A DNA stretch of 64,000 nucleotides from Caproiciproducens sp. CPB-2 (GTDB taxonomy: Bacteria > Bacillota > Clostridia > Oscillospirales > Acutalibacteraceae). How positions within the stretch are numbered: position 1 is the first letter of the stretch; every line of letters begins with the position of its first letter. The stretch is taken from assembly GCF_036287215.1 (NCBI RefSeq), contig NZ_CP142860.1, forward strand, positions 1,116,001-1,180,000, read 5' to 3'. A model generated the notes under the pieces. That model was not told where the DNA came from, did no database searches, and saw nothing but the letters and a program-made list of their open reading frames with translations. Positions 31,014 to 56,585 of this stretch are shown here, in pieces. The position numbers and the translations under genes were made by a program.

Positions 31014-31140
31014 GTTTTCTCTCAGGATCCGCCATAAAATTCATGATGGGAATCTTATCTTTTTGTTTTTAATCACTTGACGCGAGTAAATGAATATGAT
31101 AGAATATCTTTCATCTCTTTGCGCTGCATTTGATCTACAG

Positions 31141-31247
31141 TACAAACTGAGCAGGCGATAAACCCGATATGGGTTTATGGGGCTGGGCCTCGCGGCAACA
31201 GGTTGATCAGAACCTGTGGGACAGTATGTTGTCTCACAGGTATTTTT
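31141..31247 (+). ncRNA. NiCo (czcD) riboswitch with terminator platform
   Basis: The conserved NiCo blocks appear in order: ACTGAGCAGGC (31145-31155), a GGGGCTGGGCC-GCGGCAACAGG core (about 31178-31202) and CCTGTGGGACAGT (31213-31225). Outer P1 pairs ACA-ACTG with CAGT-TGT. The last arm overlaps a hairpin CTGTGGGACA/TGTCTCACAG followed by GTATTTTT, so metal binding to the aptamer would prevent termination (an ON switch). The class senses Co2+/Ni2+ and, per later work I recall, Fe2+. The downstream gene is a P-type ATPase. No other gene lies in 31014-31333. Confidence 0.88.
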
Positions 31248-31333
31248 GTACCCTTTTGAGACTGCAGCTGTATCTTTGCAATGCCATGGAGCTGTCGCAT
31301 AAATGCTTAAGAAGCATTATGGAGGTAACTTTT

Positions 31334-33862
31334 ATGACAGAACGAAAGAACACCACAAATCCAACCGGCCTGACGACGGCGGAAGCCGTGCAACGTCAAA
31401 AGCGATTCGGCAGGAACGAATTGATTCCGAAAAAGAAGAAGAATGTTCTTCAAGAGATTTTGAAAGCCTTGTCGGAACCTATGTTTTTGCTGCTCATCGT
31501 GACGGCGGTCATCTATTTTTTGCTGGGTGAGCCGCGCGACGGAGTTGTTATGCTGATCTTTGTATCGGGTATGATCAGTATCGATGTGATCCAGGGCTGG
31601 AAAACCGACAAGACCCTGAACGCCTTAAAGGATCTCGCGGCACCGCGCATTACGGTGCTGCGGGACGGAGCGGAGCAGCGGATCGACAGCGCTGATCTTG
31701 TCCCGGGAGATATCATGCTGATTGCCGAAGGCGACAAGATCCCGGCGGACGGGGAGATCCTTCAGGCAAACGATCTGTGCGTCGACGAGTCGTCCATGAC
31801 GGGCGAAGCGGAAGGCGTTTGGAAGGTCGCGCTCGGGACCGCCGATACAGACGGCGGGCACTGGCGGTGCGACCACTGCTACGCGGGGACTCTTGTGACG
31901 CAGGGAAGCGCGCTGGTCCGCGTGGATCAAATCGGCAAAGCCACCGAGTTCGGGAAAATCGGTACAAATGTCGTCGGCGCGCCGGAAGCCCCGTCGCCGC
32001 TTCAGAGGCAGACCCGCGGGCTCGTGAAGCTTTGCGCGGTTATTGCGGCGGTCCTGTTTGTATTGGTAGGCTGCTTCACTTGGCTGAATATCCCGGACCA
32101 CCAATTTACCGACAGGCTGATCGAAAGCATCCTTTCCGGCGTCACGCTCGCCATGGCCATGATCCCGGAAGAGTTCCCGGTTATTTTGACAGTCTTCCTT
32201 TCCATGGGCGCATGGCGGCTTGCAAAAAGGCATTCGCTTATGCGCAGGCTGGCTTCCGTAGAAACGCTCGGCGCCGTGTCGGTTCTTTGCGTTGATAAGA
32301 CCGGCACCATTACGATGAATCAGATGACCGTATGCGATACGTGGACGGAGGAAAACAAAGAGCGGGACCTCTGCGCGGTCATGGGGATGGCCTGTGAACC
32401 GGACGCATATGACCCTATGGAAAAGGCCATGATTTCGTATTGTGAAGGCAGGGGCCTGTCCAAGGAGTTCCTTTTCGGCGGCGAACTGATTCAGGAATAT
32501 TCGTTTACCCATGAAGCGAAAATGATGGGCCACGTCTGGCGGCGCGGCAACCAAATTCTGATCGCCGCGAAAGGCTCTCCGGAAAAGATCCTCGCTTTAT
32601 GTAATCTCAATTCGGACGAACGGGACAAAGTACAGGAAAAAGCCGCCGATATGGCGGCACGCGGGCTCCGTGTGATTGCGGTTGGCAGAATGGACGTTGG
32701 AACGGCGGACGAAGTTCCCGCTTCTTTGGCCCAGTGCCGCCTTCAGTTCTGTGGGTTGGTTGGCCTTGCGGATCCTCCGAGGGAATCCGTAAAAGCGGAT
32801 ATTCTCCGCTGCAGGAAGGCAGGCGTCCGCGTTGTGATGATTACGGGCGACAACGGCATCACGGCAAGCGCGATCGCGAAGCAGATCGGCATGCCATGCG
32901 GGGAATCCGTCACCGGCGACGAGATCGACCGGATGACGGATGAGGAACTTCAGAAACGGGTCCGTTCCGTCAGCATTTTTTCCCGCGTCGTCCCGGAGCA
33001 TAAGATGCGCATCGTGAAAGCTTTCAAGGCAAACGGCGAGATCGTGGCAATGACGGGCGACGGGGTCAACGACGCCCCCGCGCTCAAATATGCCGATATC
33101 GGCATCGCGATGGGAAAGCGCGGTTCGGAGGTGTCCCGCGAAGCCGCCGATCTCATCCTGCTTGACGATAATTTTTCGACGATTGTGGATACCATCAGGG
33201 ACGGCAGGCGGATTTACGACAACATCAAAAAAGCGGTCGGATATGTGTTCACGATTCACATTCCAATCGCGTTTTCCTGTCTGTTGGCCCCTCTCCTAAA
33301 AGTAAATCCGGCGAATCTTATGTTACTGCCCATCCATGTCGTCCTTTTGGAACTGATTATCGACCCGACCTGTTCCATCATTTTTGAACGGCAGCCCGCG
33401 GAACAGAATGTGATGGAACGCGATCCCCGTGATCCGGAAGAAAAACTGATGAGAGCGAAAGGTCTCTTCAGAAGCATCCTGCAGGGGCTGACGGTTTTTG
33501 CCTCTTCTTTTGGAACCTATTATACGGTTCTTATGGCGGATCCGGCCATAAACGCCCCGGTTGCCCGTGCAATGGGCCTTTCCATTATTTTTCTAAGCAA
33601 TATACTTTTGGTTCTGGTCAACAGTTCACAAACGGATTTTGCATTCCAGTCATTCCGCCGTCTGATCAAAGACAAGGTGATGTGGGCGGCTTTTGCGGGA
33701 ACTATTTTCATGCTTGTCCTGCTCTTATACACTCCGCTTTCAGCCTTTGTGAAGCTGGCTCCGCTGACCGGACCGGAAGCGATCGCCGTAATTGTGATGT
33801 CGGCGGCGTCGGTACTTTGGGTCGAAATCGTAAAACTTGTAAAACATCTGAGAAAGAATTAA
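31334..33862 (+). CDS. P2-like cation-transporting P-type ATPase under NiCo riboswitch
   Basis: 842 residues. Phosphorylation site VLCVDKTGTITMN, actuator SSMTGEAEG, TM4 motif MIPEEFPVIL and hinge MTGDGVNDAPALKYADIGIAMG are intact. The architecture is Ca2+-ATPase-like (P2) with ten predicted helices and no HMA domain. An unusual HWRCDHCYAG stretch (His176, Cys179, Cys182) lies in the actuator domain and could bind a transition metal. With the riboswitch, it is probably a Co/Ni or Fe(II) exporter (inference). GGAGG lies 8 bases before the start at 31334; an upstream in-frame extension to 31169 would translate the riboswitch and is rejected. Confidence 0.9.
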   Translation: MTERKNTTNPTGLTTAEAVQRQKRFGRNELIPKKKKNVLQEILKALSEPMFLLLIVTAVIYFLLGEPRDGVVMLIFVSGMISIDVIQGWKTDKTLNALKDLAAPRITVLRDGAEQRIDSADLVPGDIMLIAEGDKIPADGEILQANDLCVDESSMTGEAEGVWKVALGTADTDGGHWRCDHCYAGTLVTQGSALVRVDQIGKATEFGKIGTNVVGAPEAPSPLQRQTRGLVKLCAVIAAVLFVLVGCFTWLNIPDHQFTDRLIESILSGVTLAMAMIPEEFPVILTVFLSMGAWRLAKRHSLMRRLASVETLGAVSVLCVDKTGTITMNQMTVCDTWTEENKERDLCAVMGMACEPDAYDPMEKAMISYCEGRGLSKEFLFGGELIQEYSFTHEAKMMGHVWRRGNQILIAAKGSPEKILALCNLNSDERDKVQEKAADMAARGLRVIAVGRMDVGTADEVPASLAQCRLQFCGLVGLADPPRESVKADILRCRKAGVRVVMITGDNGITASAIAKQIGMPCGESVTGDEIDRMTDEELQKRVRSVSIFSRVVPEHKMRIVKAFKANGEIVAMTGDGVNDAPALKYADIGIAMGKRGSEVSREAADLILLDDNFSTIVDTIRDGRRIYDNIKKAVGYVFTIHIPIAFSCLLAPLLKVNPANLMLLPIHVVLLELIIDPTCSIIFERQPAEQNVMERDPRDPEEKLMRAKGLFRSILQGLTVFASSFGTYYTVLMADPAINAPVARAMGLSIIFLSNILLVLVNSSQTDFAFQSFRRLIKDKVMWAAFAGTIFMLVLLLYTPLSAFVKLAPLTGPEAIAVIVMSAASVLWVEIVKLVKHLRKN

Positions 33863-36017: not shown

Positions 36018-36950
36018 TTATGCAGCAAGATAACGTTCGTATTTCTCCATCGGTGTGAGGACACCCAGATTACGTTGAACACGCCGGGTATTGTAATAGC
36101 GGATATAATCCTCAATCATCTGGATAAGAGCCTGTTTGCTGGTGAACCGTTTGCCGTAATAGCGTTCACGCTTCAGAATGCCCCAGAAGCCTTCCATTGG
36201 ACCGTTGTCAATGCAGTGTGCCACGCGGGACATGCTTTGTGTCATACCGGCTTTGTCAATTTTGTGATGAAAAGTACGGTTCGTGTACTGGTATCCCCGG
36301 TCACTGTGAAACAGGGGATGTGCGTCCGGATTTTTCCCGACAGCTTTGTCAAAGGTCTTGAATACGAGAGGATTGTCATTACGCTCACTAATTACGAAAG
36401 CTACGATGCGCCTGTCATAGAGATCTAAAACAGCACTGAGGTAAACCTTGTGTACTTCAAGACCTTCGTACCACTTAAATTCAGTAACGTCGGTGAGCCA
36501 CTTCTCATTCGGCTGAGAGGCGAAAAACTGGCGGTCAAGAAGGTTTTCGGCAAGATACTGCGGATTCTTTGCCTGCCTTGTGCAACCGTGGTTGTTGTAC
36601 TTGATGGTGGATTTTATGTTCTTTGCCCGACAGATGCGAAGTACCCTCTTGTCATTGATGTGGATATCGTGGTCGTGTCGCAAATCATCGTTGATACGGC
36701 GGTAGCCTTTGTCTGGGCTTTCCATATGGATTTTCTCGATCTTTTCCGCAAGCCACTCGTTTTCGGCAATCCTGCGGCTTTGGTTCCCCGACGCCCATTT
36801 ATTGTAGGCGGAACGGGCGACATGAAGTAGCTTACAGGCAGTCTCGATGGGATATCCCGCTTCCGCACGGCATTCTTTTATGGATGTGTAAATATGGCCT
36901 TGCCTTACTTGCGAGAGGCATCCCTCCTCTCCACCTCGTCCAATTTTTTT
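36018..36950 (-). CDS. IS3-family transposase OrfB (DDE integrase core), frameshift-expressed
   Basis: The visible core has the DDE catalytic set: WLTDVTEFKWYEG (Asp), LFHSDRGYQYTN (Asp) and DNGPMEGFWGILKRERYY (Glu), with the rve C-terminus YYNTRRVQRNLGVLTPMEKY. The frame is open upstream through QGHIYTSIKECRAEAGYPIE into OrfA. OrfB should arise by -1 slippage on seven A residues (36944-36950 complement) inside OrfA, giving an OrfAB fusion. An ATG at 36725 could also give a shorter product. No disabling mutation was seen. Confidence 0.85.
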   Translation of the reverse strand, partial: KKIGRGGEEGCLSQVRQGHIYTSIKECRAEAGYPIETACKLLHVARSAYNKWASGNQSRRIAENEWLAEKIEKIHMESPDKGYRRINDDLRHDHDIHINDKRVLRICRAKNIKSTIKYNNHGCTRQAKNPQYLAENLLDRQFFASQPNEKWLTDVTEFKWYEGLEVHKVYLSAVLDLYDRRIVAFVISERNDNPLVFKTFDKAVGKNPDAHPLFHSDRGYQYTNRTFHHKIDKAGMTQSMSRVAHCIDNGPMEGFWGILKRERYYGKRFTSKQALIQMIEDYIRYYNTRRVQRNLGVLTPMEKYERYLAA

Positions 36951-37603
36951 AGCAGGGCATTCTCCATTTCCGCCAGATACAGCTTGTGTTTAAGTTGTTC
37001 GATCTCAATTTGTGCCTGCTCCAACTCTGTGCGTGGTGCCTGATCTTTTTTTCGCTGCCCACGCCTATCCTGCAGACCAGCTTCACCCATTTTCTCAAAG
37101 TTCAGCGTCCAGGTGCGTGCCTGCTGGTAGCTTACATTATATTTAAGCGCCATCTCGCCGTAATTTTTACCGGATGCAATACAATCTTTCACGATTCGAA
37201 TACGTTCATCTGGCGTTGTGCTGCGTGCTTTTCTCATGTAGCTTCCTCCTCCGGAATGCTTGACGGAGTTGAATTCTCCATGATTATTATACTTCTTTAT
37301 CCAACATCGAAGTTGTTTTCTTGACCGGATTTTGTATTTCTCGCATATGGCGTGCTGACTACATCCGCCTGATAAATATTCCAGCACCGCTTGCTTTTTG
37401 AGCTCTTGGCTGTAGACGTGATTCTTTTTTCCTGACGCAAAGCCCAGAACTCCCTCTTGGCGATAAATCCGTGCCCAATCTGTTATGACATCAGGTGCGA
37501 CTTCCGCCCGTTTCGCGGCTTCTTCCCTTGAGATATTTCCAGTTATATATTCCCGGGTGATTCTTACCTTTTTCGCAATTGCTATTTTTGACTTACTTGA
37601 CAT
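36905..37603 (-). CDS. IS3-family transposase OrfA
   Basis: About 232 residues from the ATG at 37603, which has AAGGGAG about 8 bases upstream. Two helix-turn-helix domains occur (ITGNISREEAAKRAEVAPDVITDWARIYRQEG; CSQHAICEKYKIRSRKQLRCWIKKY), then a leucine-zipper-like C-terminus (LEQAQIEIEQLKHKLYLAEME). It binds the IS ends and dimerises with OrfAB. Confidence 0.85.
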   Translation of the reverse strand: MSSKSKIAIAKKVRITREYITGNISREEAAKRAEVAPDVITDWARIYRQEGVLGFASGKKNHVYSQELKKQAVLEYLSGGCSQHAICEKYKIRSRKQLRCWIKKYNNHGEFNSVKHSGGGSYMRKARSTTPDERIRIVKDCIASGKNYGEMALKYNVSYQQARTWTLNFEKMGEAGLQDRRGQRKKDQAPRTELEQAQIEIEQLKHKLYLAEMENALLKKLDEVERRDASRK

Positions 37604-37676
37604 CAAAATGCTCCCTTCATGATCAACAGTGTTTTTCTTTTTCACTGTCTCTCATAAAGGGAGCATATCATCACTC

Positions 37677-38800
37677 CTATTCGATGCGAACGGGATCTTT
37701 TCTTCGCGGAAAATTGCTTATCTCCTGCGCAGGCGCATGCTCGATCCCACCGTGTGTACTGGGTTTACCTTCAGCTATGTCCGGGTCAACCGTATAAGCC
37801 GCATTCCTGCGGATGAGTTCTTCCTCCAGCTCGAACCGGTCGGCGTACTCCACCTTCCGGGCCGACTTTTCCTCAACCTCATAAGGCTTGCCGAAGGTGA
37901 TACCCCAATCCTTAAACAGCTTGAGCCGGGTGCGCATTGGATAAGCGCCGGTTTTCGTCACAACGAATCTGCCCTTGGACATGGATTTGAGTTCGTCCGG
38001 CGAAAGGAGCGGACGCTCGATCATTTCGAGGTTCTGCGAGCCGTCGCTTTTGCCCCGGTTAACGGTCCCGCTCATCACCGTTCGGGTTCCCAGCGATTTG
38101 GACAGGGTTTCTGCCGACTCGCTGTTAGGCGCGAAACCTCCGAAAATCGTGTCCTGGCAGTTATCCACGATGATGGCGGCGCCTTCTTTTCCGTAATTTT
38201 TCTCCAACTGAGCAAGGCTCTGGATGATGGCTGTTATGGACACCCTGCGCGAGCGGCTGGACGAGAACATCATCTCGGCCGACTCTATTTTGGGAATGGT
38301 CCCTATCTCATCAAGGTACATCATGACACGGTTGGGCAGTTTGCCGCCGTGTTCGTCGGCCACGGCAAGGATTTCGCGGTAGAGCTGCTGGACGATCAGG
38401 CTGATGATGAAGTATTTGGTGGAATCCTCTTCAGGCATCACCAAAAATATCGCGGACTTAGTGTTGCAGAACTTTTCCGCGTCGATCGCAGTGTCAAAAC
38501 ACAGGACCTGCTCCAGTTCGGAATCCAGGAATGCGTTGAGCCTGGAAAGTGCCGTGGAAAGGACGCTCTGCATCGCCATATCCGCGCTGTTGAGTGCCGC
38601 GCCCGCGAACCATTTTGTCTTGTGGTCGTCCGGAAGATGCGCCATCAGCAGCTGGAACAGAGTCCTGCCCTTCACGCCGCTCGGTGCGAGCAGGTCTTGA
38701 ATCAGCTTGAAGACGGAGACGATATGGCGCTTCTCCGGAGGGCAGAATTCCGCGAGCAGAAGGATGACCGAGGTTAAGCTGAAATCCTCCATTGCCAGGC
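37677..38800 (-). pseudogene. VirD4/TraG-type conjugation coupling protein, N-terminal half lost
   Basis: About 370 residues of the C-terminal ATPase: VMMYLDEIGTIPKIESAEMMFSSSRSRRVSITAIIQSLAQL contains the Walker B region, and IIVDNCQDTIFGGFAPNSESAETLSKSLG is typical of the CD1115-type VirD4 of clostridial ICEs. The membrane helices and Walker A are absent: the homologous frame begins at MEDFSLTSVILLLAEF and abuts an IS110 fragment at about 38800. The C-terminus is intact, ending 6 bp from the IS3 element. Confidence 0.85.
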
Positions 38801-38802
38801 TG

Positions 38803-39507
38803 GTATGCATTCTGTTCCCAGAGTTGGAAAAGCTGGTGCCGTCACTCCATATGGCCTCTGTCTACGCTTTGTTGGCTGAGTTTCCGGGGGCCAAGCAGGT
38901 TGCCGAAGCGCACCTTACACGGTTGAAAGCTCTCCTGCTTGAAGCGTCCAAAGGGCGTTACAAGCGGGATGTAGCTGTGGAAATCCGTGAGGCTGCCAAA
39001 GCGTCGATTGGTTCCGTACTGCCGGCAAAGTCGCTGGAGCTTCGGCATACCATCCACCTCATTCGGGAACTGGACGCTGAGATTGAAGAAGTTGAAACCG
39101 CAATCCAGACCATTATGGATGAAATTTCCTCACCCATTGTCACCATACCCGGCATTGGTACTCAAATGGGGGCCATGATACTTGCCGAGGTGGGCGACTT
39201 CTCCCGTTTCGATTCCCCCGACAAAGTGCTGGCCTATGCCGGACTGTCGCCATCCACATACCAATCCGGGCAGCTCACAAACTGCTATGCCCATATGGAG
39301 AAGCGCGGCTCCAGGTACCTGCGATTTGCCATTTTCAATGCCACCAAGTATGTTTGCCACTGGGATCCGACCTTTGCTGCTTATCTCGCTAAAAAACGCG
39401 CCGAGGGCAAGCACTACAATGTTGCCATCTCTCACGCCGCCAAGAAACTGGTGCGGCTCATTTACGCCTTGGAGAAATCCGGAGAGCCTTACCATCTGGC
39501 AGCATAA
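38803..39507 (+). mobile_element. IS110-family transposase fragment (C-terminal part)
   Basis: About 235 residues of the transposase_20 half: IPGIGTQMGAMILAEVGDFSRFDSPDKVLAYAGLSPSTYQSG, then AHMEKRGSRYLRFAIFNATKYV and ISHAAKKLVRLIYALEKSGEPY. The RuvC-like DEDD half (about 150 residues) is missing; the upstream DNA is the antisense of virD4. Recognition is certain, activity is not possible. Confidence 0.88.
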
Positions 39508-40051: not shown

Positions 40052-40303
40052 CATGGTAATTACGTTTCCGCTGCGGATACTTCGCCATAGGGCCTGTCCT
40101 TCATTACGTAATTGTTGAAATCCAGAAATGAAGAACAAGCGGCGGAGCCCGACAGCGTGGTATAGCCGCAAACAATAAAACAGAATCGTACCTGTGAGCA
40201 TGGTTGTCCACAGATATACCCCTGTAAATTATTTTATATTTTACCTGTAGTTGTAGTTGGCGTCGTTGCCCATAAGAAGCATAGGCCTTTTTGACGAACT
40301 ACA
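40052..40303 (-). repeat. ICE leader/sigma-gene-start repeat, copy 1
   Basis: About 250 bases that match 55894-56154 in the same orientation. Shared blocks include AATTATTT-ATATT-TACCTG, GTGAGCATGGTTG-CCACAG and GAAGAACAAGCGGCGGAGCC. The copy ends inside the 5' coding part of a sigma-like gene (MAKYPQRKRNYH versus MAKYQKRTDYH in copy 2) and is there fused to the thiamine pyrophosphokinase fragment. Confidence 0.85.
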
Positions 40304-49220: not shown

Positions 49221-49526
49221 TCAATTCCCGCCGTTCGCATTTTCGCTATCGGCAGAATTGTTGATCTGACCTTCCAATTTATAAAGATCAGTACGTGCGA
49301 AACTGCTCAATCTTTCCTTGTCAGCCACTTTCCCGGACGCGCGTTTTGTCGACGCGATCAAGTCGCCCAAAACACAATTTACGTATCCACCATATCCGTC
49401 GGAGGAACGTAAAAACTCCAGCCGCTTTGTATATTGTTCCGCCTGCTTTTTTGTGTCAGCGCTTAAGGCGCATTCCACCAGGCGTGAAACTTCATCATAG
49501 GTATTCTGAGTAATTGCCGATTTCAT
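49221..49526 (-). CDS. Small hypothetical protein ending the TerB/helicase operon
   Basis: 101 residues, charged and helix-rich (NTYDEVSRLVECALSADTKKQAEQYTKRLEFLRSSDGYGGYVN). I do not recognise the family. A GAGGTGAT site precedes the ATG, and it is 21 bp past the helicase stop, so co-transcription is likely. No membrane segment or metal motif is seen. Confidence 0.7.
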   Translation of the reverse strand: MKSAITQNTYDEVSRLVECALSADTKKQAEQYTKRLEFLRSSDGYGGYVNCVLGDLIASTKRASGKVADKERLSSFARTDLYKLEGQINNSADSENANGGN

Positions 49527-49547
49527 ATTGTTTTTATCACCTCGGTA

Positions 49548-51728
49548 CTAACTGTCGGTTTTCACATCTTTTAAAACATCAATTGCCGACTCCAGATCCA
49601 GCTCATTATGCAAAAAAGCGCTGCGAAGCAGTTCTCCCGGAATCATGGCGTCGTATTTATCTACCTGTGGGATTTGATTCTCCGGCAAAACCATGTCCGG
49701 GTCGTCCATGTCAATGGACAGCTCCGCCATTCTCCGGAACAGTTCGGTCCCTGAAAAGCCGCTGGTGATCTGCAGGTAATGGTCGCCCCCAAAAACGGAG
49801 TAGATCTGAAGCGGCTCCTTGAGTCCGCAGTTGAGCAGGCACTTGATGGTTTTCATTGTCATTGAGCCTACCCATGGGCAGAAATAGAAGGAGTTTTCCC
49901 CGCACGGGAGAATGCTGCTTTCCAGCATCCCGGACTCTCTTGCCATAGAGCGGGCAGCTTCCAAAACCTTTTGCGCCCTGGGTGTCAGGTACGGATAGCA
50001 GACGTCTTCTTCCAAAACTTTTTTCATTCTCTGAACGATCTTGGTGTGGATATGCCCTCCGCTTCCGTTCCAGCTGGGAATCCGGTTATTTCTCACCGGG
50101 GTGACATATACGATTTTCCGCTCCATATCGACATCAAGCGTTTTCCAAGTTCGTCCGGCCAAAACGAAAACCTCTCCCGCTGTCGGGCAGCTGTCCAGAG
50201 TGCCGATTTCTCCTTCCTTGCTTTGCACATGGTAAGCCTGTTCATCCTGAAAAACAGCGTAGAATGAATAATGGTTGGTAATCCGCTCGCCACGGATACC
50301 TACGATAATTGCCCCGTTTTCCACACGCTGCAGGTAATCCTCAGCAATCATATAGCGAAGAATCAGCCTGTATTCCTCCTGGGTGATCGTCTTCTGGAAG
50401 GCGGGAAGAAGCAGGACGCGCCGGGCTAGTTCCGGCGGACTGAGCTCTCCGTAGGTCATCAGGGTGCTCAGCGTCTGATGCGCAAGAAGGCTGAACGGCT
50501 TTGGCTTCAGGGTGAACGGCTCCACCCAGCTTTCCTCAAGGTAAAGCTGGATGATGGCAATCGCCCGCAGAAGCGTCCATGGCAGCTGTTCAAAAATATT
50601 CCGTTCCGACGGTTCCAGCAGTTCCAGAAACATCATCTGCGACTTTCCGCTGCGCCGTCCGGAACGTCCCAGACGCTGGACAAAGCTGGTGCAGGAGTAA
50701 GGCGCGCCGATCTGTATGGTGGAATCCAAATCTCCGATGTCGATACCCAACTCCAGCGTCAGCGTGGCGGCGGCGACGGTCGGGCCCTCCCGGTCACGCA
50801 GGGCGGCTTCCGCTTCCTGCCGCAGCGCGGCGGAAACGCTGCCGTGATGCACAAAGAAAACGTCTTTTTTATGCTTTTTGCGCGCAATCTCCTTCATGTC
50901 GGCGATGACCTTTTCGGCGCTGCCCCTACTGTTCGTGAAAATCAGGCACTTTTTGTCATGGCAGTTATCATAGAGAAAAGAATTGTATTCCTCCATGACC
51001 TTTTCCGCTTCTTCCGGGTCGTGAGGCAAGAGGAAGCTATCGGCACAGAGGGAGATCGTGCGTCCATGATGTTTGATACCAACGGCTTGCGCATGGCGGT
51101 TCGTCCCAGCCGCCAGATACCGGAGCGCGGGTTCATAGTCGTTCAGCGTGGCGGACAGGCCGATGCGTCTCGGGTGGCAGCCCGCGATTTTCTCCAGTCT
51201 GGCCAGCAGACACAGCACCTGCAGTCCGCGATCCGTTCCCATAAAGGCGTGAATCTCATCGATGACAACAAAGCGCAGGTCCCCAAAAAGGCGGGCCGTC
51301 TCTGCCGGACGAAGCATAAGCAGGGCTTCCAGCGATTCCGGCGTAATCTGCAAGACGCCCTGTGCCTCTTTCAGTGCGCGCTGCTTCATGGACTGCGAAA
51401 CATCCCCGTGCCACGGCCAGACCGGGATACCGCTGTCCTCCAATAGACCGCTCAGCCGCTCGAACTGGTCATTGATCAGGGCTTTCAGCGGCCCAATATA
51501 CAAAACGCCAACGGAGTTCGACGGGTGATGGTACAGAGTGGTCAGGATGGGGAAAAAAGCAGCTTCCGTCTTGCCCGACGCCGTGCCGGAAGCAATAATA
51601 ACGTGATCGTCCGTGTCAAGAATCGCGGAGCAGGCCTCCGTCTGTACCTCGCGCAGGTCCGTCCAGCGTTTCCGGTAGATGTATTCCTGAATAAACGGCG
51701 CGTAGCGCTCGAACGCGGTCCCGCTCAT
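49548..51728 (-). CDS. Lhr-like DEAD/DEAH helicase, BrxHI-like
   Basis: 726 residues. SF2 motifs: Q region LREVQTEACSAIL, Walker A SGTASGKTEAAF, motif II FVVIDEIHAF, motif III LSATLND, motif VI RLGRSGRR, with VAAATLTLELGIDIGDLD between. The long C-terminal part continues beyond the helicase core. Lhr-like helicases paired with a BrxD-type ATPase occur in some BREX systems (BrxHI). It overlaps the ATPase stop by 4 bp (ATGA), so they are coupled. Confidence 0.88.
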   Translation of the reverse strand: MSGTAFERYAPFIQEYIYRKRWTDLREVQTEACSAILDTDDHVIIASGTASGKTEAAFFPILTTLYHHPSNSVGVLYIGPLKALINDQFERLSGLLEDSGIPVWPWHGDVSQSMKQRALKEAQGVLQITPESLEALLMLRPAETARLFGDLRFVVIDEIHAFMGTDRGLQVLCLLARLEKIAGCHPRRIGLSATLNDYEPALRYLAAGTNRHAQAVGIKHHGRTISLCADSFLLPHDPEEAEKVMEEYNSFLYDNCHDKKCLIFTNSRGSAEKVIADMKEIARKKHKKDVFFVHHGSVSAALRQEAEAALRDREGPTVAAATLTLELGIDIGDLDSTIQIGAPYSCTSFVQRLGRSGRRSGKSQMMFLELLEPSERNIFEQLPWTLLRAIAIIQLYLEESWVEPFTLKPKPFSLLAHQTLSTLMTYGELSPPELARRVLLLPAFQKTITQEEYRLILRYMIAEDYLQRVENGAIIVGIRGERITNHYSFYAVFQDEQAYHVQSKEGEIGTLDSCPTAGEVFVLAGRTWKTLDVDMERKIVYVTPVRNNRIPSWNGSGGHIHTKIVQRMKKVLEEDVCYPYLTPRAQKVLEAARSMARESGMLESSILPCGENSFYFCPWVGSMTMKTIKCLLNCGLKEPLQIYSVFGGDHYLQITSGFSGTELFRRMAELSIDMDDPDMVLPENQIPQVDKYDAMIPGELLRSAFLHNELDLESAIDVLKDVKTDS

Positions 51729-53062
51729 ATGTCAAATTCCGCAAAAAGCTTGTCCTCTTTGTCCGGCACTTCTTCCGGGTTCTGCTCGGCGCTCTGGACG
51801 GAAAAGCCCTTCTCATTCACCAATGTATCGAAGCTCAGCTCCGGATTCTGATGGAGGATATTCAAAAGGCCGAGAAAGTCCCTTGTCACCTCACGGGGCG
51901 TCAGGAGCTGATCCGCTCCCATACGGGAAACGACCGCATTCAGAAACGTGGTAAGCTCCCGCTGCCCAAGCGGGCAGGTATAATTGTAATGGCAGCTGTG
52001 AAGCTCGCAAAGGCGTTCCAGCAGAAGATAGATTTCCTCGGGGGTCAGCTGGTTGAGCTTGATCACCGGTCCGGAATAATCGGTATAGCCGCTTGCACTG
52101 AACTGATTGTCCGCCAGGCGGGAACGCAGTGCTTCATAATTGAACAAGCCTCTGCGTTCGTCATAGACAAACTGCGGCGTTCCGCTCATGAAAACGCCAA
52201 TGTACCGAGCTTTGCCTTGCATGGTGTCGTTGAAGATCGTCAGGATCTTTTCATAGTTGCTGTCTCTGGCCTGCTTATTGGTAATCTTATAGAGGTTGAC
52301 GCCCTCGTCCAGAAAGACGAGCAGTCCCTGATAGCCCGCCTTTACCGCGAACAGTGCGAACAGCTTCAGAAAATCATACCAGCTCTGGTCGTCGATGATG
52401 CAGTCCACCGAGAGGTTCTGCCGCGCTTCCGTTTTTGTTGTGTACTCGCCTCTCAGCCAGCGGAGCGCCGACTGCTTCTGTTCCTCCTGCCCGGTTTTCA
52501 TTCCGCGCCAGTAGGCTTCGATCACCGTGGAAAAAGCAAAGCCATAGGCCATTTCGGAAAGCTCTGCCATGACCGCCGCGATTTTGCCGCTGACGGCGTC
52601 AACCATTCCCGGATCGCCGGGATGCAAGCCGCTTTCCTGAATGACGGCCGCCTGCAGGGAACTGATCCATTTCTGCAGAATCGCCTCCAGCGCCCCGCCC
52701 TCCGGTCGTGTCAGAATCGAAAGATGCTGCATCAGCTCACGATAGGTTGCCAGGCCCTGTCCCTTCGTGCCGGTCAGCCTGCGTTCAGGGGAAAGATCCG
52801 CATCCGCGACAACGAAATTCCGTTCCATGGCATTATTTCGGATCATCTGAAGCAGAAAGCTTTTGCCGCTGCCGTACTGGCCAGTCACAAGGCGGAAAGA
52901 CGCGCCTCCGTCTTCAATTGTGGATAAATCCTGTAAAAAAGCGCCTACCTCTTTCTGCCGTCCGACAGCGATGTGCCGAAGCCCGACGCGCGGCACGACT
53001 CCGGCAATCAGAGAATTGAGAAGCGCGCCGGATTCCCGGCGGCTGATCTTTACGGTCTGCAT
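51725..53062 (-). CDS. DUF2791 P-loop ATPase, BrxD-like
   Basis: 445 residues. GVVPRVGLRHIAVGRQKEVGAFL leads to Walker A VTGQYGSGKSFLLQMI and the diagnostic ADADLSPERRLTGTKGQGLATYRELM; a later LLVFLDEGVNLYKITNKQARDSNYEKIL is Walker B and sensor. This is the DUF2791 family, called BrxD in BREX. The start at 53062 has GGGGGAA upstream; it begins 14 bp after the TerB-like gene stop. Confidence 0.88.
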   Translation of the reverse strand: MQTVKISRRESGALLNSLIAGVVPRVGLRHIAVGRQKEVGAFLQDLSTIEDGGASFRLVTGQYGSGKSFLLQMIRNNAMERNFVVADADLSPERRLTGTKGQGLATYRELMQHLSILTRPEGGALEAILQKWISSLQAAVIQESGLHPGDPGMVDAVSGKIAAVMAELSEMAYGFAFSTVIEAYWRGMKTGQEEQKQSALRWLRGEYTTKTEARQNLSVDCIIDDQSWYDFLKLFALFAVKAGYQGLLVFLDEGVNLYKITNKQARDSNYEKILTIFNDTMQGKARYIGVFMSGTPQFVYDERRGLFNYEALRSRLADNQFSASGYTDYSGPVIKLNQLTPEEIYLLLERLCELHSCHYNYTCPLGQRELTTFLNAVVSRMGADQLLTPREVTRDFLGLLNILHQNPELSFDTLVNEKGFSVQSAEQNPEEVPDKEDKLFAEFDI

Positions 53063-53075
53063 GATAACGTTCCCC

Positions 53076-55061
53076 CTAAGCAATTGATTTTTTCAAAGCC
53101 GGCGCGTATTCGTCCAGAATATGCGGCGATTCCTCGGCGGTATCAATCAGAATATCCCCCAGATATTGCATGGCCGCCGCATTAATGTCGTCCAGAAGAA
53201 TCTGCGGCATGGTCAGCGCTTCCTCTGCGATTTTTTCCAGTTCCGGCTGCGAGTCAACGGACGCGGTCACAGCGAATAGAGCCTTTTCCTGCTCCGGCGA
53301 GAGCGCTTCCATAAAGTCACGGAATTCTTCCGGCAGGAGAGATGCGTCGAAGCACTTTGTCCGGGCTTCCTCCGCCGGTATCGCGGGCGGATTTTCATAA
53401 ATGTAGGCAAGCTCGTCCCGGTAATCGTCCTCTGCGATAATATCGGCATTTTCCACGACCAGAAGCGCGCGCCCCAGATATCGTTCCGACTGCCGGTTGA
53501 TCTCCTGAATCAAAGCTTCGTCCCCCGGCTGGGAAGGAGCCTCCCATGCGCTTTTCTGCAAGAGGTCCAGAAGGCCTCGCGTCTCAGGCGACAGCGCCAG
53601 ATAAATCGAGGTGACCTCTTTCACATCGGTCAGTAAAGCCTTTTCTGCTTTGGATTCTGGTTCTTCCACTGAGAGTGCTTCCCGCACGGCATCCGATTCT
53701 TCCCGCAGCGTGTTAATATTTTCAAAATTCAAGACGACCTTCGTGGGCTTTTCCTCTGATAAATCGGTTCTCTGTCGATTGCCATACTCTTTTGTCAGGA
53801 AACTGTCGATCAGTTTTGAGGTTTCCGGGTCCAGCGTAATCCCGCGAAGACGGCCCCGGCATCCGCATAGGTTTCTCAGCGAGTTTTCGCCGTAGCGAAC
53901 CAGCTCGTTGATGTAAGCGCGCAACTTTGGATAAGCGGAATAGCCCTTAACCGTGAAGGCTATTTTTTGATTTGCCTGGGGGCATACCGCGCTTGCAAAC
54001 GCATAGTATTCCTGCTTTTTTGCTCGGGTCGGACCATAGGTATCCAAGATGCCCTTTCCCGTCTTCTTTTGAAGAGCGGCGTCGGCAAGAGCCACAACCC
54101 GAGGGATAGCCTCCCGCATCAGTTCCTGATTGCCGTCTTTATAGAACTTGCTGCTGACGATGGAATAGTCGCACAGCGCGTCAATGAGAGAAAAAGAGAG
54201 CTTCAATGGAACCTCGGACGCATGCCGGGCAATCATCAGATCCGTTTTAGCCGAGGGCGATGCGTGAGGGTTCTCCTGCTCTGAAAGGGAAAAGTCTGTA
54301 AGTTCATACTGTCGGGCGAAGTCAAATATCCAATCTCCCAGATAACGGTCCAGCGCGGGAAATCTCTCCCGGTAGGCGTTCCATACCCGCTTGAGCTTTT
54401 CATAGCCGTCCCGCGGGGATTCCCATCCGGTTCCGCTGAGCAGCTCATAAATCAGTACGAAAATGTACGACAGATCCGTGTCAATGTAATTTCTCTGGCG
54501 GACCTGAGAACGCCAGTAGAAGTACCATGCCTGCTGGCTTTTGTTCATACTGTCGTAAGTCGGCCAATAAGACATAAACGGCACAAATGGGACTTCTTTT
54601 CCATCCTTCTGTGCAAACCTTTTCATATCCGCAAAGAACTTTTCATGCGGATCATGGATCGAAACCCGGACTGTAGAAGCGGAATACTGCGGCCTTGCGG
54701 GAACGGCTTGTTTTTTCTCCGGCTCCCCCTGGAGCACCATGTCGGAAAAGCCGGGGGCCGTCGGTGATGGGGAATGGATATTGGCCTTTTCTTGCGGACT
54801 GGCGGAAGACACCCCGGCCGAAGCCATCCGCTTTCTGATGCTCCTGTAAGCAAAAATATACTGAACGATCCCGACAATCCAAAGGAACGGCGCTGTGGAT
54901 GGGACCGCGAAGGTTACAACCGCATAAACAATCCCGCAGATAATATGCAGTGCGTTAGTATTCACGATTCCGATATAAAGTACGGAAAGCCAATTGATCC
55001 ATGGAATAAAGGAGAGCACCCTGCAGAACTTTCCGGGCAGCTTAGGAGTTGTGCTTTTCAT
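53076..55061 (-). CDS. TerB-N/TerB-C domain membrane-associated protein
   Basis: 661 residues. Two or three hydrophobic helices at about 15-80 (FIPWINWLSVLYIGIVNTNALHIICGIVYAVV), then a linker and TerB-N at about 150-270 (FVPFMSYWPTYDSMNKSQQAWYFYWRSQVRQRNYIDTDLSYIFVLIYELL). The C-terminal about 180 residues resemble TerB-C. It may anchor the system at the membrane or sense a ligand. The start at 55061 has AAGGAGG 9 bases ahead and overlaps the XRE gene by 20 bp. Confidence 0.85.
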   Translation of the reverse strand: MKSTTPKLPGKFCRVLSFIPWINWLSVLYIGIVNTNALHIICGIVYAVVTFAVPSTAPFLWIVGIVQYIFAYRSIRKRMASAGVSSASPQEKANIHSPSPTAPGFSDMVLQGEPEKKQAVPARPQYSASTVRVSIHDPHEKFFADMKRFAQKDGKEVPFVPFMSYWPTYDSMNKSQQAWYFYWRSQVRQRNYIDTDLSYIFVLIYELLSGTGWESPRDGYEKLKRVWNAYRERFPALDRYLGDWIFDFARQYELTDFSLSEQENPHASPSAKTDLMIARHASEVPLKLSFSLIDALCDYSIVSSKFYKDGNQELMREAIPRVVALADAALQKKTGKGILDTYGPTRAKKQEYYAFASAVCPQANQKIAFTVKGYSAYPKLRAYINELVRYGENSLRNLCGCRGRLRGITLDPETSKLIDSFLTKEYGNRQRTDLSEEKPTKVVLNFENINTLREESDAVREALSVEEPESKAEKALLTDVKEVTSIYLALSPETRGLLDLLQKSAWEAPSQPGDEALIQEINRQSERYLGRALLVVENADIIAEDDYRDELAYIYENPPAIPAEEARTKCFDASLLPEEFRDFMEALSPEQEKALFAVTASVDSQPELEKIAEEALTMPQILLDDINAAAMQYLGDILIDTAEESPHILDEYAPALKKSIA

Positions 55062-55287
55062 TCTCGGATTCCTCCTTTTCTGTGGATACTGGCTTGACCT
55101 CCATGATATCGGACACATCGCAATTTAACGCGTTGCAGATTTTTACGAGAATATCCGTATTGACATTTTCGCTTTTCCCCAGCTTGGCAAGCGAGGATGG
55201 GCTGATGCCGGCCGAAACACACAGATCTTTCTTTTTAATATCACGATCGATGAGCAGTTTCCATAATTTTTTATAGCTAACAGACAT
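55042..55287 (-). CDS. XRE-family small regulator of TerB operon
   Basis: 81 residues: KLWKLLIDRDIKKKDLCVSAGISPSSLAKLGKSENVNTDILVKICNALNCDVSDIM is a Cro/C1-type helix-turn-helix. ATG 55287 is preferred to 55293 because GGGGG lies 6 bases ahead only for the former. It is the first gene of the operon, with a CAAATATATTTG palindrome 55 bp upstream. Confidence 0.88.
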   Translation of the reverse strand: MSVSYKKLWKLLIDRDIKKKDLCVSAGISPSSLAKLGKSENVNTDILVKICNALNCDVSDIMEVKPVSTEKEESENEKHNS

Positions 55288-55341
55288 AGACATCCCCCTA
55301 AATTTGGATATTCACATTATACAACGTAACTGTCGAATTCT

Positions 55342-55353
55342 CAAATATATTTG
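55342..55353. promoter_or_regulatory. Candidate XRE operator
   Basis: Perfect 12-bp palindrome CAAATATATTTG within a longer near-symmetric TCTC...GAGA context, upstream of the XRE-TerB operon. Confidence 0.45.
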
Positions 55354-55477: not shown

Positions 55478-55927
55478 TTACTTTTCCATAAGTTTTTTTA
55501 ACTTCGCCAGAATTTTTATCTTCCGGTCATGAATGGTTCGTTGGGCGATGCCGATTTCTCTGGACACCTGATGCTCACTTTTGCCTTTGAAAAACAGAGC
55601 AGTGATCAATTTCTGTTCCTCCGTGCTGAGCTGCTTGAGGCAGGTCAGCATTTTTTCGATCATCACGGTCTTGATTGCGGCATCGTCCACGCCCTCGCCA
55701 GCGGCGATAAACTGCTTGTTTTCCTCCAGAAGCCGTTCATAGGAGTCCTCCCTGCTGGGGAGATATGTAACGGCGCCGCTCACAGAATCGATCCGGCATC
55801 GCTCGACTTTGATGTCATACTGCAAATATTCCATCTGTCGGTCGCTTTTCTCCAAGACCTCAATGATTTCTTTGCTCACACCGGGATATTTCGCATGGTA
55901 ATCCGTTCTTTTCTGATACTTTGCCAT
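55478..55927 (-). CDS. Sigma-70-like regulator of ICE type
   Basis: 149 residues. The C-terminal STEEQKLITALFFKGKSEHQVSREIGIAQRTIHDRKIKILAKLKKLM is a sigma region 4 helix-turn-helix, and the N-terminus is RTDYHAKYPGVSKEIIEVLEKSDRQMEYLQYDIKVER. Such small factors occur in clostridial ICEs. GGAGG lies 9 bases before the start at 55927. Its start and leader are the second copy of the repeat at 40052. A hairpin TGTCCCCC/GGGGGACA lies past the stop (about 55423-55462). Confidence 0.85.
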   Translation of the reverse strand: MAKYQKRTDYHAKYPGVSKEIIEVLEKSDRQMEYLQYDIKVERCRIDSVSGAVTYLPSREDSYERLLEENKQFIAAGEGVDDAAIKTVMIEKMLTCLKQLSTEEQKLITALFFKGKSEHQVSREIGIAQRTIHDRKIKILAKLKKLMEK

Positions 55928-56154
55928 AAGGCTTGTCCTCCATTTCGTGATTGTTGAAATCCGGAAATGAAGAACAAGCGGCGGAGCCCGGCAGCGCGGT
56001 ATAGCTGCAAACAACAAAACAGGAGCGTACTTGTGAGCATGGTTGCCCACAGGTTCGCCCCTGTAAATTATTTCATATTCTACCTGCTCTGGTGGTTCGT
56101 ATTGCTGCCCGCGTTGCTCCCTTGAAAAGCACAGGCTTTTTTTGACAAGCTACC
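55894..56154 (-). repeat. ICE leader/sigma-gene-start repeat, copy 2
   Basis: Matches 40052-40303 in the same orientation, including GAAGAACAAGCGGCGGAGCC and GTGAGCATGGTTG. Here it is the intact leader and first codons of the sigma-like gene. The two copies are direct repeats about 15.84 kb apart and bracket the ars, NifX/MinD and TerB blocks. Confidence 0.85.
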
Positions 56155-56386: not shown

Positions 56387-56437
56387 GCAAAGAATGCCCT
56401 GATCCTGTCAAAAGGACAGACTCAGGACATTCTTTGC
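56387..56437 (-). terminator. Stable hairpin following c-di-GMP riboswitch
   Basis: On the minus strand GCAAAGAATG and CATTCTTTGC close an arm extended by imperfect CCTGA/TCAGG and CTGTC/GACAG pairs. It begins at the last aptamer nucleotides, so it is a plausible expression platform. No T tract follows. Two further hairpins (arms ACCCGCCAA/TTGGCGGGT and CCCTCCA/TGGAGGG, the latter followed by CTTTTCT) lie at about 56311-56349 and 56271-56290. No gene fits in 56155-56386. Confidence 0.5.
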
Positions 56438-56516
56438 AACCAGGCTGTCATAGCGTTATTTAAACGCTTTAGATCCTTGGCTTTGCGTCCCAGTCTTTCG
56501 ACAAGTTTGCCCTTAT
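56434..56516 (-). ncRNA. Cyclic di-GMP-I (GEMM) riboswitch aptamer
   Basis: Read on the minus strand the conserved GEMM-I blocks are in order: AAGGGCAAAC, a GTCGAAAGAC stem with GAAA tetraloop, GGGACGCAAAGCC, GGATCTAAAGCG with its partner CGCTATGACAGCC, and GGTTGC. The order and bases match GEMM-I, including C. difficile examples I recall. It lies between an activase gene (stop 56586) and ICE-like leader DNA, with no intact gene directly downstream; the nearest is the sigma-like gene about 500 bp on. Confidence 0.85.
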
Positions 56517-56585
56517 CATTATTTTGTTACTGAATATCACCGGCTTGCCCCGGTACATTCTAGTACATGGAGCGCTGCCTTTACA

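Follow-up and report, generated by a model that had tools for sequence, protein, structure and literature searches.

A Shango-type operon with a membrane-segment-bearing SngA in Caproiciproducens sp. CPB-2

A compact five-gene operon on the minus strand

The locus considered here lies in a 64,000-nucleotide stretch of the Caproiciproducens sp. CPB-2 genome (contig NZ_CP142860.1; hereafter the window, the whole stretch of DNA that was analysed), and consists of five adjacent genes on the minus strand. In their order along that strand, these encode an XRE/Cro-type regulator (55042..55293; Pfam HTH_26, 65.7 bits), a TerB_N/TerB_C protein (sngA, 53076..55061, with the longest open reading frame [ORF] extending to 55118), a BrxC/D-family AAA+ ATPase (sngB, 51725..53083), an Lhr/BrxHI-like SF2 helicase (sngC, 49548..51728), and a small protein of 101 residues (49221..49526) whose gene starts 21 bp past sngC. 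The list of ORFs and the Pfam matches confirm the places, strand, and domains that the initial annotation had assigned to these genes. SngB matches Pfam BrxC_BrxD (PF10923) at 547 bits and retains its Walker motifs, and SngC matches the DEAD and Helicase_C families at 99 and 56 bits, respectively, again with its helicase motifs intact; the best matches of SngC among PDB sequences are the ATP-dependent DNA helicases 5v9x and 7lhl, with the best stretch covering residues 27–281.

The description of SngA as a membrane-anchored TerB_N/TerB_C protein was likewise borne out, its domains by Pfam and its N-terminal membrane segment by hydropathy alone. The TerB_N domain lies at 54057..54713 (PF13208, 140 bits), and the TerB_C region at 53094..53768 (42 bits), where an AlphaFold2 (AF2) model gives weak matches to winged-helix folds. 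The putative membrane segment (54816..55031) comprises two hydrophobic stretches and coincides with helices in the model (39–53, 56–71, and 73–101 in the numbering of the 680-residue ORF), which is itself only fair (pLDDT 67.6, pTM 0.35). Its hydropathy suggests that SngA of the window is anchored in the membrane.

The five genes are tightly packed, with the exact spacing dependent on the choice of start codons. The ATG at 55061, which gives a SngA of 661 residues, is preceded by AGGAGG and corresponds to the start point of the ORFs of six relatives; it is probably the true sngA start, rather than 55118. Similarly, the extra N-terminal residues of the longest SngB ORF are absent in 12 of 15 aligned relatives, and the ATG at 53062 is probably the true start of sngB. 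The XRE gene thus overlaps sngA by 20 bp from the likely start (77 bp from the longest ORF), and sngA and sngB either overlap by 8 bp or are separated by 13 bp, according to the sngB start chosen. Both genes are present at 15 loci of the clade to which the window belongs (described below), and at 14 of these, the window among them, sngB overlaps sngC by 4 bp, L083 being the exception; the gene arrangement is therefore not a product of chance. Just before the XRE gene lies a sigma-70-type promoter-like site, TTGAGA-17-TATAAT (55316..55344, minus strand), which agrees with the consensus at 11 of 12 positions. A scan of 8 kb returned nine promoter-like sites against 6.2 expected in shuffled sequences, and the pre-XRE site alone among them reaches 11/12; it is likely to be the promoter of the operon.

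The three large genes match the Shango defense system

The initial annotation regarded this operon as a candidate undescribed defense system. That designation fails because the trio matches a system that has already been named and published, Shango, which consists of a TerB-like protein, an ATPase, and a helicase (PMC10250203). SngA matches the PADLOC SngA profile at 294 bits (E = 7.8e-88, covering positions 71–526 of 528) and, at E 0.001, nothing else in PADLOC. SngB scores 627 bits against the SngB profile vs. 171 for BrxD, and SngC scores 790 bits against the SngC profile vs. 461 for BrxHI; both cover their Shango profiles over nearly the full length. As in Shango, the three genes are adjacent, on one strand, and in the order A-B-C, an order that annotation also gives in seven of nine fetched plasmid regions ranging from Paenibacillus to Halocatena. 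The annotation of the E. coli plasmid locus (L095) contains no helicase, and a shorter ORF there matches the SngC profile at 548 bits; another plasmid region (L098) is unannotated yet has matches to all three Shango profiles.

The window differs from Shango in several respects. It adds the XRE gene before sngA and the small gene after sngC, its SngB is 43% identical to that of the E. coli plasmid locus, and its SngA carries a membrane hairpin and has no match to PF05099, the domain that forms the TerB core and that one review lists for Shango (PMC10952713). We do not hold PF05099 to be a defining feature, since it is lacking from the SngA of Methylibium (L092) and from two Paenibacillus SngA proteins in Pfam searches, and since the PADLOC SngA profile is matched without it. 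From the PADLOC profiles and the gene order, we are highly confident that the window operon is of the Shango type.

When placed in PAO1, the PA14 Shango system shifted plating by 10- to 100-fold for many, although not all, of the phages tested (PMC10250203), and the same source cites anti-phage protection by an E. coli Shango system. The published phage tests, as far as these sources describe them, concern the PA14 and E. coli systems and none concerns the clade of the window. The window operon probably has an anti-phage function.

A BrxD/BrxHI-like pair outside BREX

The ATPase and helicase recall type 2 BREX (Pgl), in that SngB falls in the Pfam BrxC_BrxD family and BrxHI is the PADLOC runner-up for the helicase. 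The window nevertheless differs from that system in lacking PglZ, and the five genes include no PglX, PglW, or BrxC; none of the five proteins has the PglX or BrxC profiles of PADLOC among its listed matches (for the helicase, the best 25 of 54). SngB reaches 171.7 bits against NCBIfam BREX_BrxD, short of the cut-off of 350. The statement of the initial annotation that PglX, PglZ, and BrxC are absent thus holds for the operon, and for PglZ in the window as a whole, but the host genome has a separate BREX locus about 1.76 Mb away. The sole PglZ match of the genome lies there, at 2.93 Mb, in a region (L032, G000:C1:2922800-2942700) with PglX, PglZ, BrxL, and a BrxC that reaches the end of the fetched stretch. 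After this BREX locus come a PDC-S06-like gene and a gene with weak endonuclease-type matches.

Across 295 genomes of the order, SngB was matched in 68, PglZ exceeded its cut-off in 12, and both occurred in only four: the window's own genome (G000), G078, G217, and G135, where SngB scores only 19.7 bits. The trio is thus not a constant companion of complete BREX, even though the host happens to be one of the four. In Methanosarcina sp. DH2 (L085), Shango lies near BrxL and PglZ, and we read such joint occurrences as neighbors in defense-rich genomes rather than as parts of one system. We considered whether the operon could be a reduced BREX system, and rejected this because the Shango profiles score higher and because SngB and PglZ seldom share a genome.

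More broadly, one might regard the locus as an undescribed system other than Shango, or as a BREX derivative whose PglX/PglZ/BrxC core has given way to a TerB protein, on the grounds that the ATPase and helicase have BrxD and BrxHI as relatives, that PglZ is absent from the window, and that PF05099 was not found in SngA. Against this, SngB and SngC favor the Shango profiles by wide margins, SngA matches no rival PADLOC family, the same trio order is found across phyla, only 4 of 68 SngB-bearing genomes have PglZ, and PF05099 was also not found in Methylibium L092, within the proteobacterial group. We consider either reading very improbable. What stands from the initial annotation is that this is a stand-alone operon of defense type, akin to the BrxD/BrxHI pair without being a BREX system, as the profile scores and co-occurrence counts bear out. 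The likeness of SngB and SngC to BREX components is genuine, but is already in print.

SF2 helicases also feature in other defense systems, namely DruE in Druantia, DpdJ in Dpd, and HamB in Hachiman, which give 68, 116, and 57 bits, respectively, with the window SngC in PADLOC, far below the SngC profile. The partner genes of these three systems are other than those of Shango. A study of Hachiman places SngC, BrxHI, DruE, and DpdJ in one helicase clade and groups HamB with the Ski2 helicases (PMC12278908).

A distinct clade with a patchy distribution

A scan of named genomes, made with a single protein and thus reaching close relatives only, yielded 16 loci with SngB 69%–99% identical to that of the window. 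They come from Caproiciproducens galactitolivorans, Acetobacterium, Desulforamulus, Agathobaculum, Ruthenibacterium, Anaerobutyricum, two Methanosarcina, and others, including several metagenome bins. In a tree of SngB (63 rows, built by a quick method), the window falls in a group of 16 rows with support 100, which unites several Clostridia families with Methanosarcina and is set off from the loci that the survey yielded in the window's own order; seven plasmid records (Pseudomonadota, Actinomycetota, and Halocatena) lie to one side of another branch, likewise with support 100. The clade's rows cannot be counted as independent: the window, L072, and L087 are near-duplicates of one another, and L079, L080, and L082 all come from Acetobacterium. 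The nearest rows to the window are L075 and L072 (C. galactitolivorans). At the former (L075 10-1101, Lachnospiraceae MAG UBA1066), a SngB 99% identical to that of the window ends after approximately 362 residues and is followed by unrelated ORFs, indicating either a broken copy or an assembly fault. A second SngB/BrxD relative (L111, G297:C31; 35% identical) is present in a genome of the genus that also holds a 99% copy.

Within the genus, the operon is present in 2 of 11 genomes, its own included. The survey of the order provides a broader comparison: 38 of the 67 other SngB-positive genomes were fetched, and 35 of these yielded SngA. These loci (L034–L071) share TerB_N and TerB_C with the window SngA and likewise lack PF05099, but unlike the window they have no membrane segment in SngA (35 of 35) and fall on other branches of the SngB tree. 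The single complete trio tested among them (L048) matches all three PADLOC Shango profiles. Nine of the 38 survey loci have no SngC in the fetched stretch, and in eight of these nine the genes following SngB read as rny-, alaS-, folD/pyk-, or sua5-like. The soluble SngA-SngB loci possibly represent a resident branch of the Shango family, judging from these gene contexts.

Such loci bear on the question of whether the window operon could serve cellular DNA processing or stress responses without a main role in defense. The frequency of SngB in the order (matched in 68 of the 295 genomes), the survey loci without SngC that lie beside housekeeping-type genes, and the flanks common to near relatives all point in that direction, and the soluble relatives fit a cellular function for some members of the family. 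The window clade, however, is separate in the SngB tree and has membrane segments; its operon is patchy in the genus; among its loci, two or more flanking genes are shared only by the window and L072; defense neighbors occur at some loci of the clade; and PA14 Shango reduces phage plating (PMC10250203). For the window itself, we therefore regard a primarily cellular role as unlikely.

Genomic surroundings

The initial annotation placed the operon beside debris of an integrative conjugative element. Both a fragment of a T4SS-DNA_transf coupling protein (37677–38810) and IS3-like transposase genes (36018–37645) do exist, but they lie 10–13 kb from the operon, and its direct neighbors are other genes: a NifX/Mrp-type cluster (by reading) flanks one side, and a sigma-70 region-4 gene flanks the opposite side. 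Near relatives share flanks, and among the clade loci at least two flanking genes are common only to the window and L072. The operon DNA is 92.6% identical between these two, compared with 83.6%–86.5% for the left (NifX/Mrp) flank. One could take the locus for decaying mobile-element cargo that is no longer functional, in view of the conjugation-gene fragment and transposase genes, the truncated SngB of L075, and a local duplication at the small-gene end in L072 (see below). In the window, the three large genes are nonetheless open with their motifs intact, and the operon is better conserved than its flank; decay of this kind has very little probability in our estimate.

At 5 of 14 clade loci, we picked 10 defense-looking neighbor proteins, of which nine, in L080, L081, L082, and L085, match PADLOC at E 1e-8, whereas the one from L076 does not; the loci were chosen by hand, and some of the nine matches are weak or to candidate families only. 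At L078, L083, L084, and L086, the neighboring genes appear, by reading, to have housekeeping or metabolic roles rather than roles in defense.

Upstream of the operon, the sigma-70 region-4 gene (55478–56050, minus strand) is preceded by a c-di-GMP-I riboswitch (56432–56521, minus strand; 81.7 bits). The same pair recurs without Shango at G000:C1:1110282-1111217 (L104), and before Shango in L072; at L087, no riboswitch was found. We considered control of the operon by c-di-GMP on account of this pair, and have set it aside, without disproving it, because the pair recurs without SngB, the search at L087 gave no riboswitch, and the operon has a promoter-like site of its own. A direct repeat of about 260 bp (40052–40302 and 55894–56153, 79.8% identical) takes in the leader and the beginning of the sigma-like gene, with a partial copy (110 bp, 88%) ahead of the paralogue in L104. 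Elsewhere in the window, an 897-residue ORF (31169–33862), by reading a P-type ATPase, has a NiCo riboswitch (31137–31226, plus strand; 70.1 bits) at its start; its true start codon is probably further in.

The XRE and small genes among relatives

Strong XRE homologues (above 90 bits) precede sngA only in L072, L087, and L084, which does not support the regulator as a component of Shango in general. In L086, a weak XRE-like ORF (14.4 bits) does lie directly before sngA, and others (17.5 and 22.7 bits) lie on the other strand within 1 kb upstream in L077 and in the survey locus L034; a nearby helix-turn-helix gene may therefore be commoner than these counts indicate.

Searches of PADLOC, Pfam, NCBIfam, and PHROGs gave no match to the small protein at E 0.001. 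Its gene sits beside the operon only in the window and in L072, the latter having two copies, with the contigs of L087 and L075 not reaching the corresponding position, and we accordingly rejected it as a core component; our reading is that it is a lineage-specific passenger or accessory. In L072 (11557–15097), the small-gene end, single in the window, is duplicated (254 bp, 84%) around a 901-residue gene that reads as a P-type ATPase. Among the 295 genomes of the order, homologues of the small protein occur in two, G000 and G264, the latter weak at 31% identity (L089:1501-1773). It is situated between a 149-residue ORF, behind a methyltransferase-like gene (by reading), and a 445-residue protein without a Pfam match, possibly a defense context.

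Membrane segments and TerB domains across SngA variants

By hydropathy, a crude test applied here without a dedicated membrane predictor, an N-terminal membrane segment is present in 14 of 15 SngA proteins of the clade (the exception being L083; L074, a fragment, and L075, whose contig has no SngA, are excluded), in none of 35 from the survey of the order, and in four of nine from plasmids. The clade and survey counts are unchanged at three thresholds, while the plasmid count falls to three at the strictest, and the fourth case (L097) depends on an over-extended start. With L097 scored as positive, the distribution of segments requires at least five changes on the SngB tree. The anchors also differ in type by lineage: most of the clade has a hairpin, whereas Agathobaculum, Anaerobutyricum, and Halocatena have a TM2 domain, and E. 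coli and Pantoea have one helix only. Pfam recognizes TM2 in two clade loci, L077 and L086, and also in Halocatena L094 if an upstream start is used.

Both TerB_N and TerB_C are present in all 13 clade SngA proteins of the alignment (A3, from which L073, with a masked stretch, and L078, with a C-terminal gap, were omitted), none of which matches PF05099. The survey proteins show TerB_N in 35 of 35, TerB_C in 34 of 35, and PF05099 in 0 of 35. All nine plasmid proteins have TerB_N and TerB_C, and six (L093 to L098) have PF05099, counting L094 at 24.1 bits, just below the Pfam cut-off of 24.4; Pfam did not find it in L090, L091, or L092.

A tentative model for Shango at the membrane

The descriptions of Shango consulted here give no mechanism. 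Drawing on the domains, we tentatively propose a division of labor that we regard as possible rather than probable. SngA would keep the complex at the membrane and, perhaps via its winged-helix-like C-terminal part, help it to meet entering DNA. SngB, as an ORC/Cdc6-like AAA+ protein, would load SngC onto invading DNA or switch it there, in keeping with the helicase-loader role proposed for BrxD (PMC12839542), and SngC, as an Lhr-like translocating helicase, would act on the incoming DNA. Because no nuclease domain was recognized in SngA, SngB, or SngC, the block would probably consist of remodeling of phage DNA by the helicase, or of its hand-over to host nucleases; the C-terminal half of SngC, for which the model is poor (pLDDT 48.7), may hide a nuclease fold.

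A wider proposition, on balance doubtful, is that Shango is a membrane-sited defense in which different lineages have joined unrelated membrane modules to the SngA of one ATPase-helicase engine, so that the complex would meet phage or plasmid DNA at entry, with the TerB core being dispensable. Overall, we lean towards an explanation in which the locus is an anti-phage operon of the Shango type, probably with its own promoter and an XRE regulator, in a clade mainly of Clostridia with some Methanosarcina whose SngA carries a membrane segment and no recognizable TerB core; the mechanism proposed above is the least certain part of it.

At the level of gene finding, these results mean that a BrxD/BrxHI-like pair alone does not signal BREX. 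For the Shango family, the clade of the window keeps the ATPase and the helicase while lacking the TerB core and carrying a membrane segment, which hints at which parts are essential and at where the system may act.
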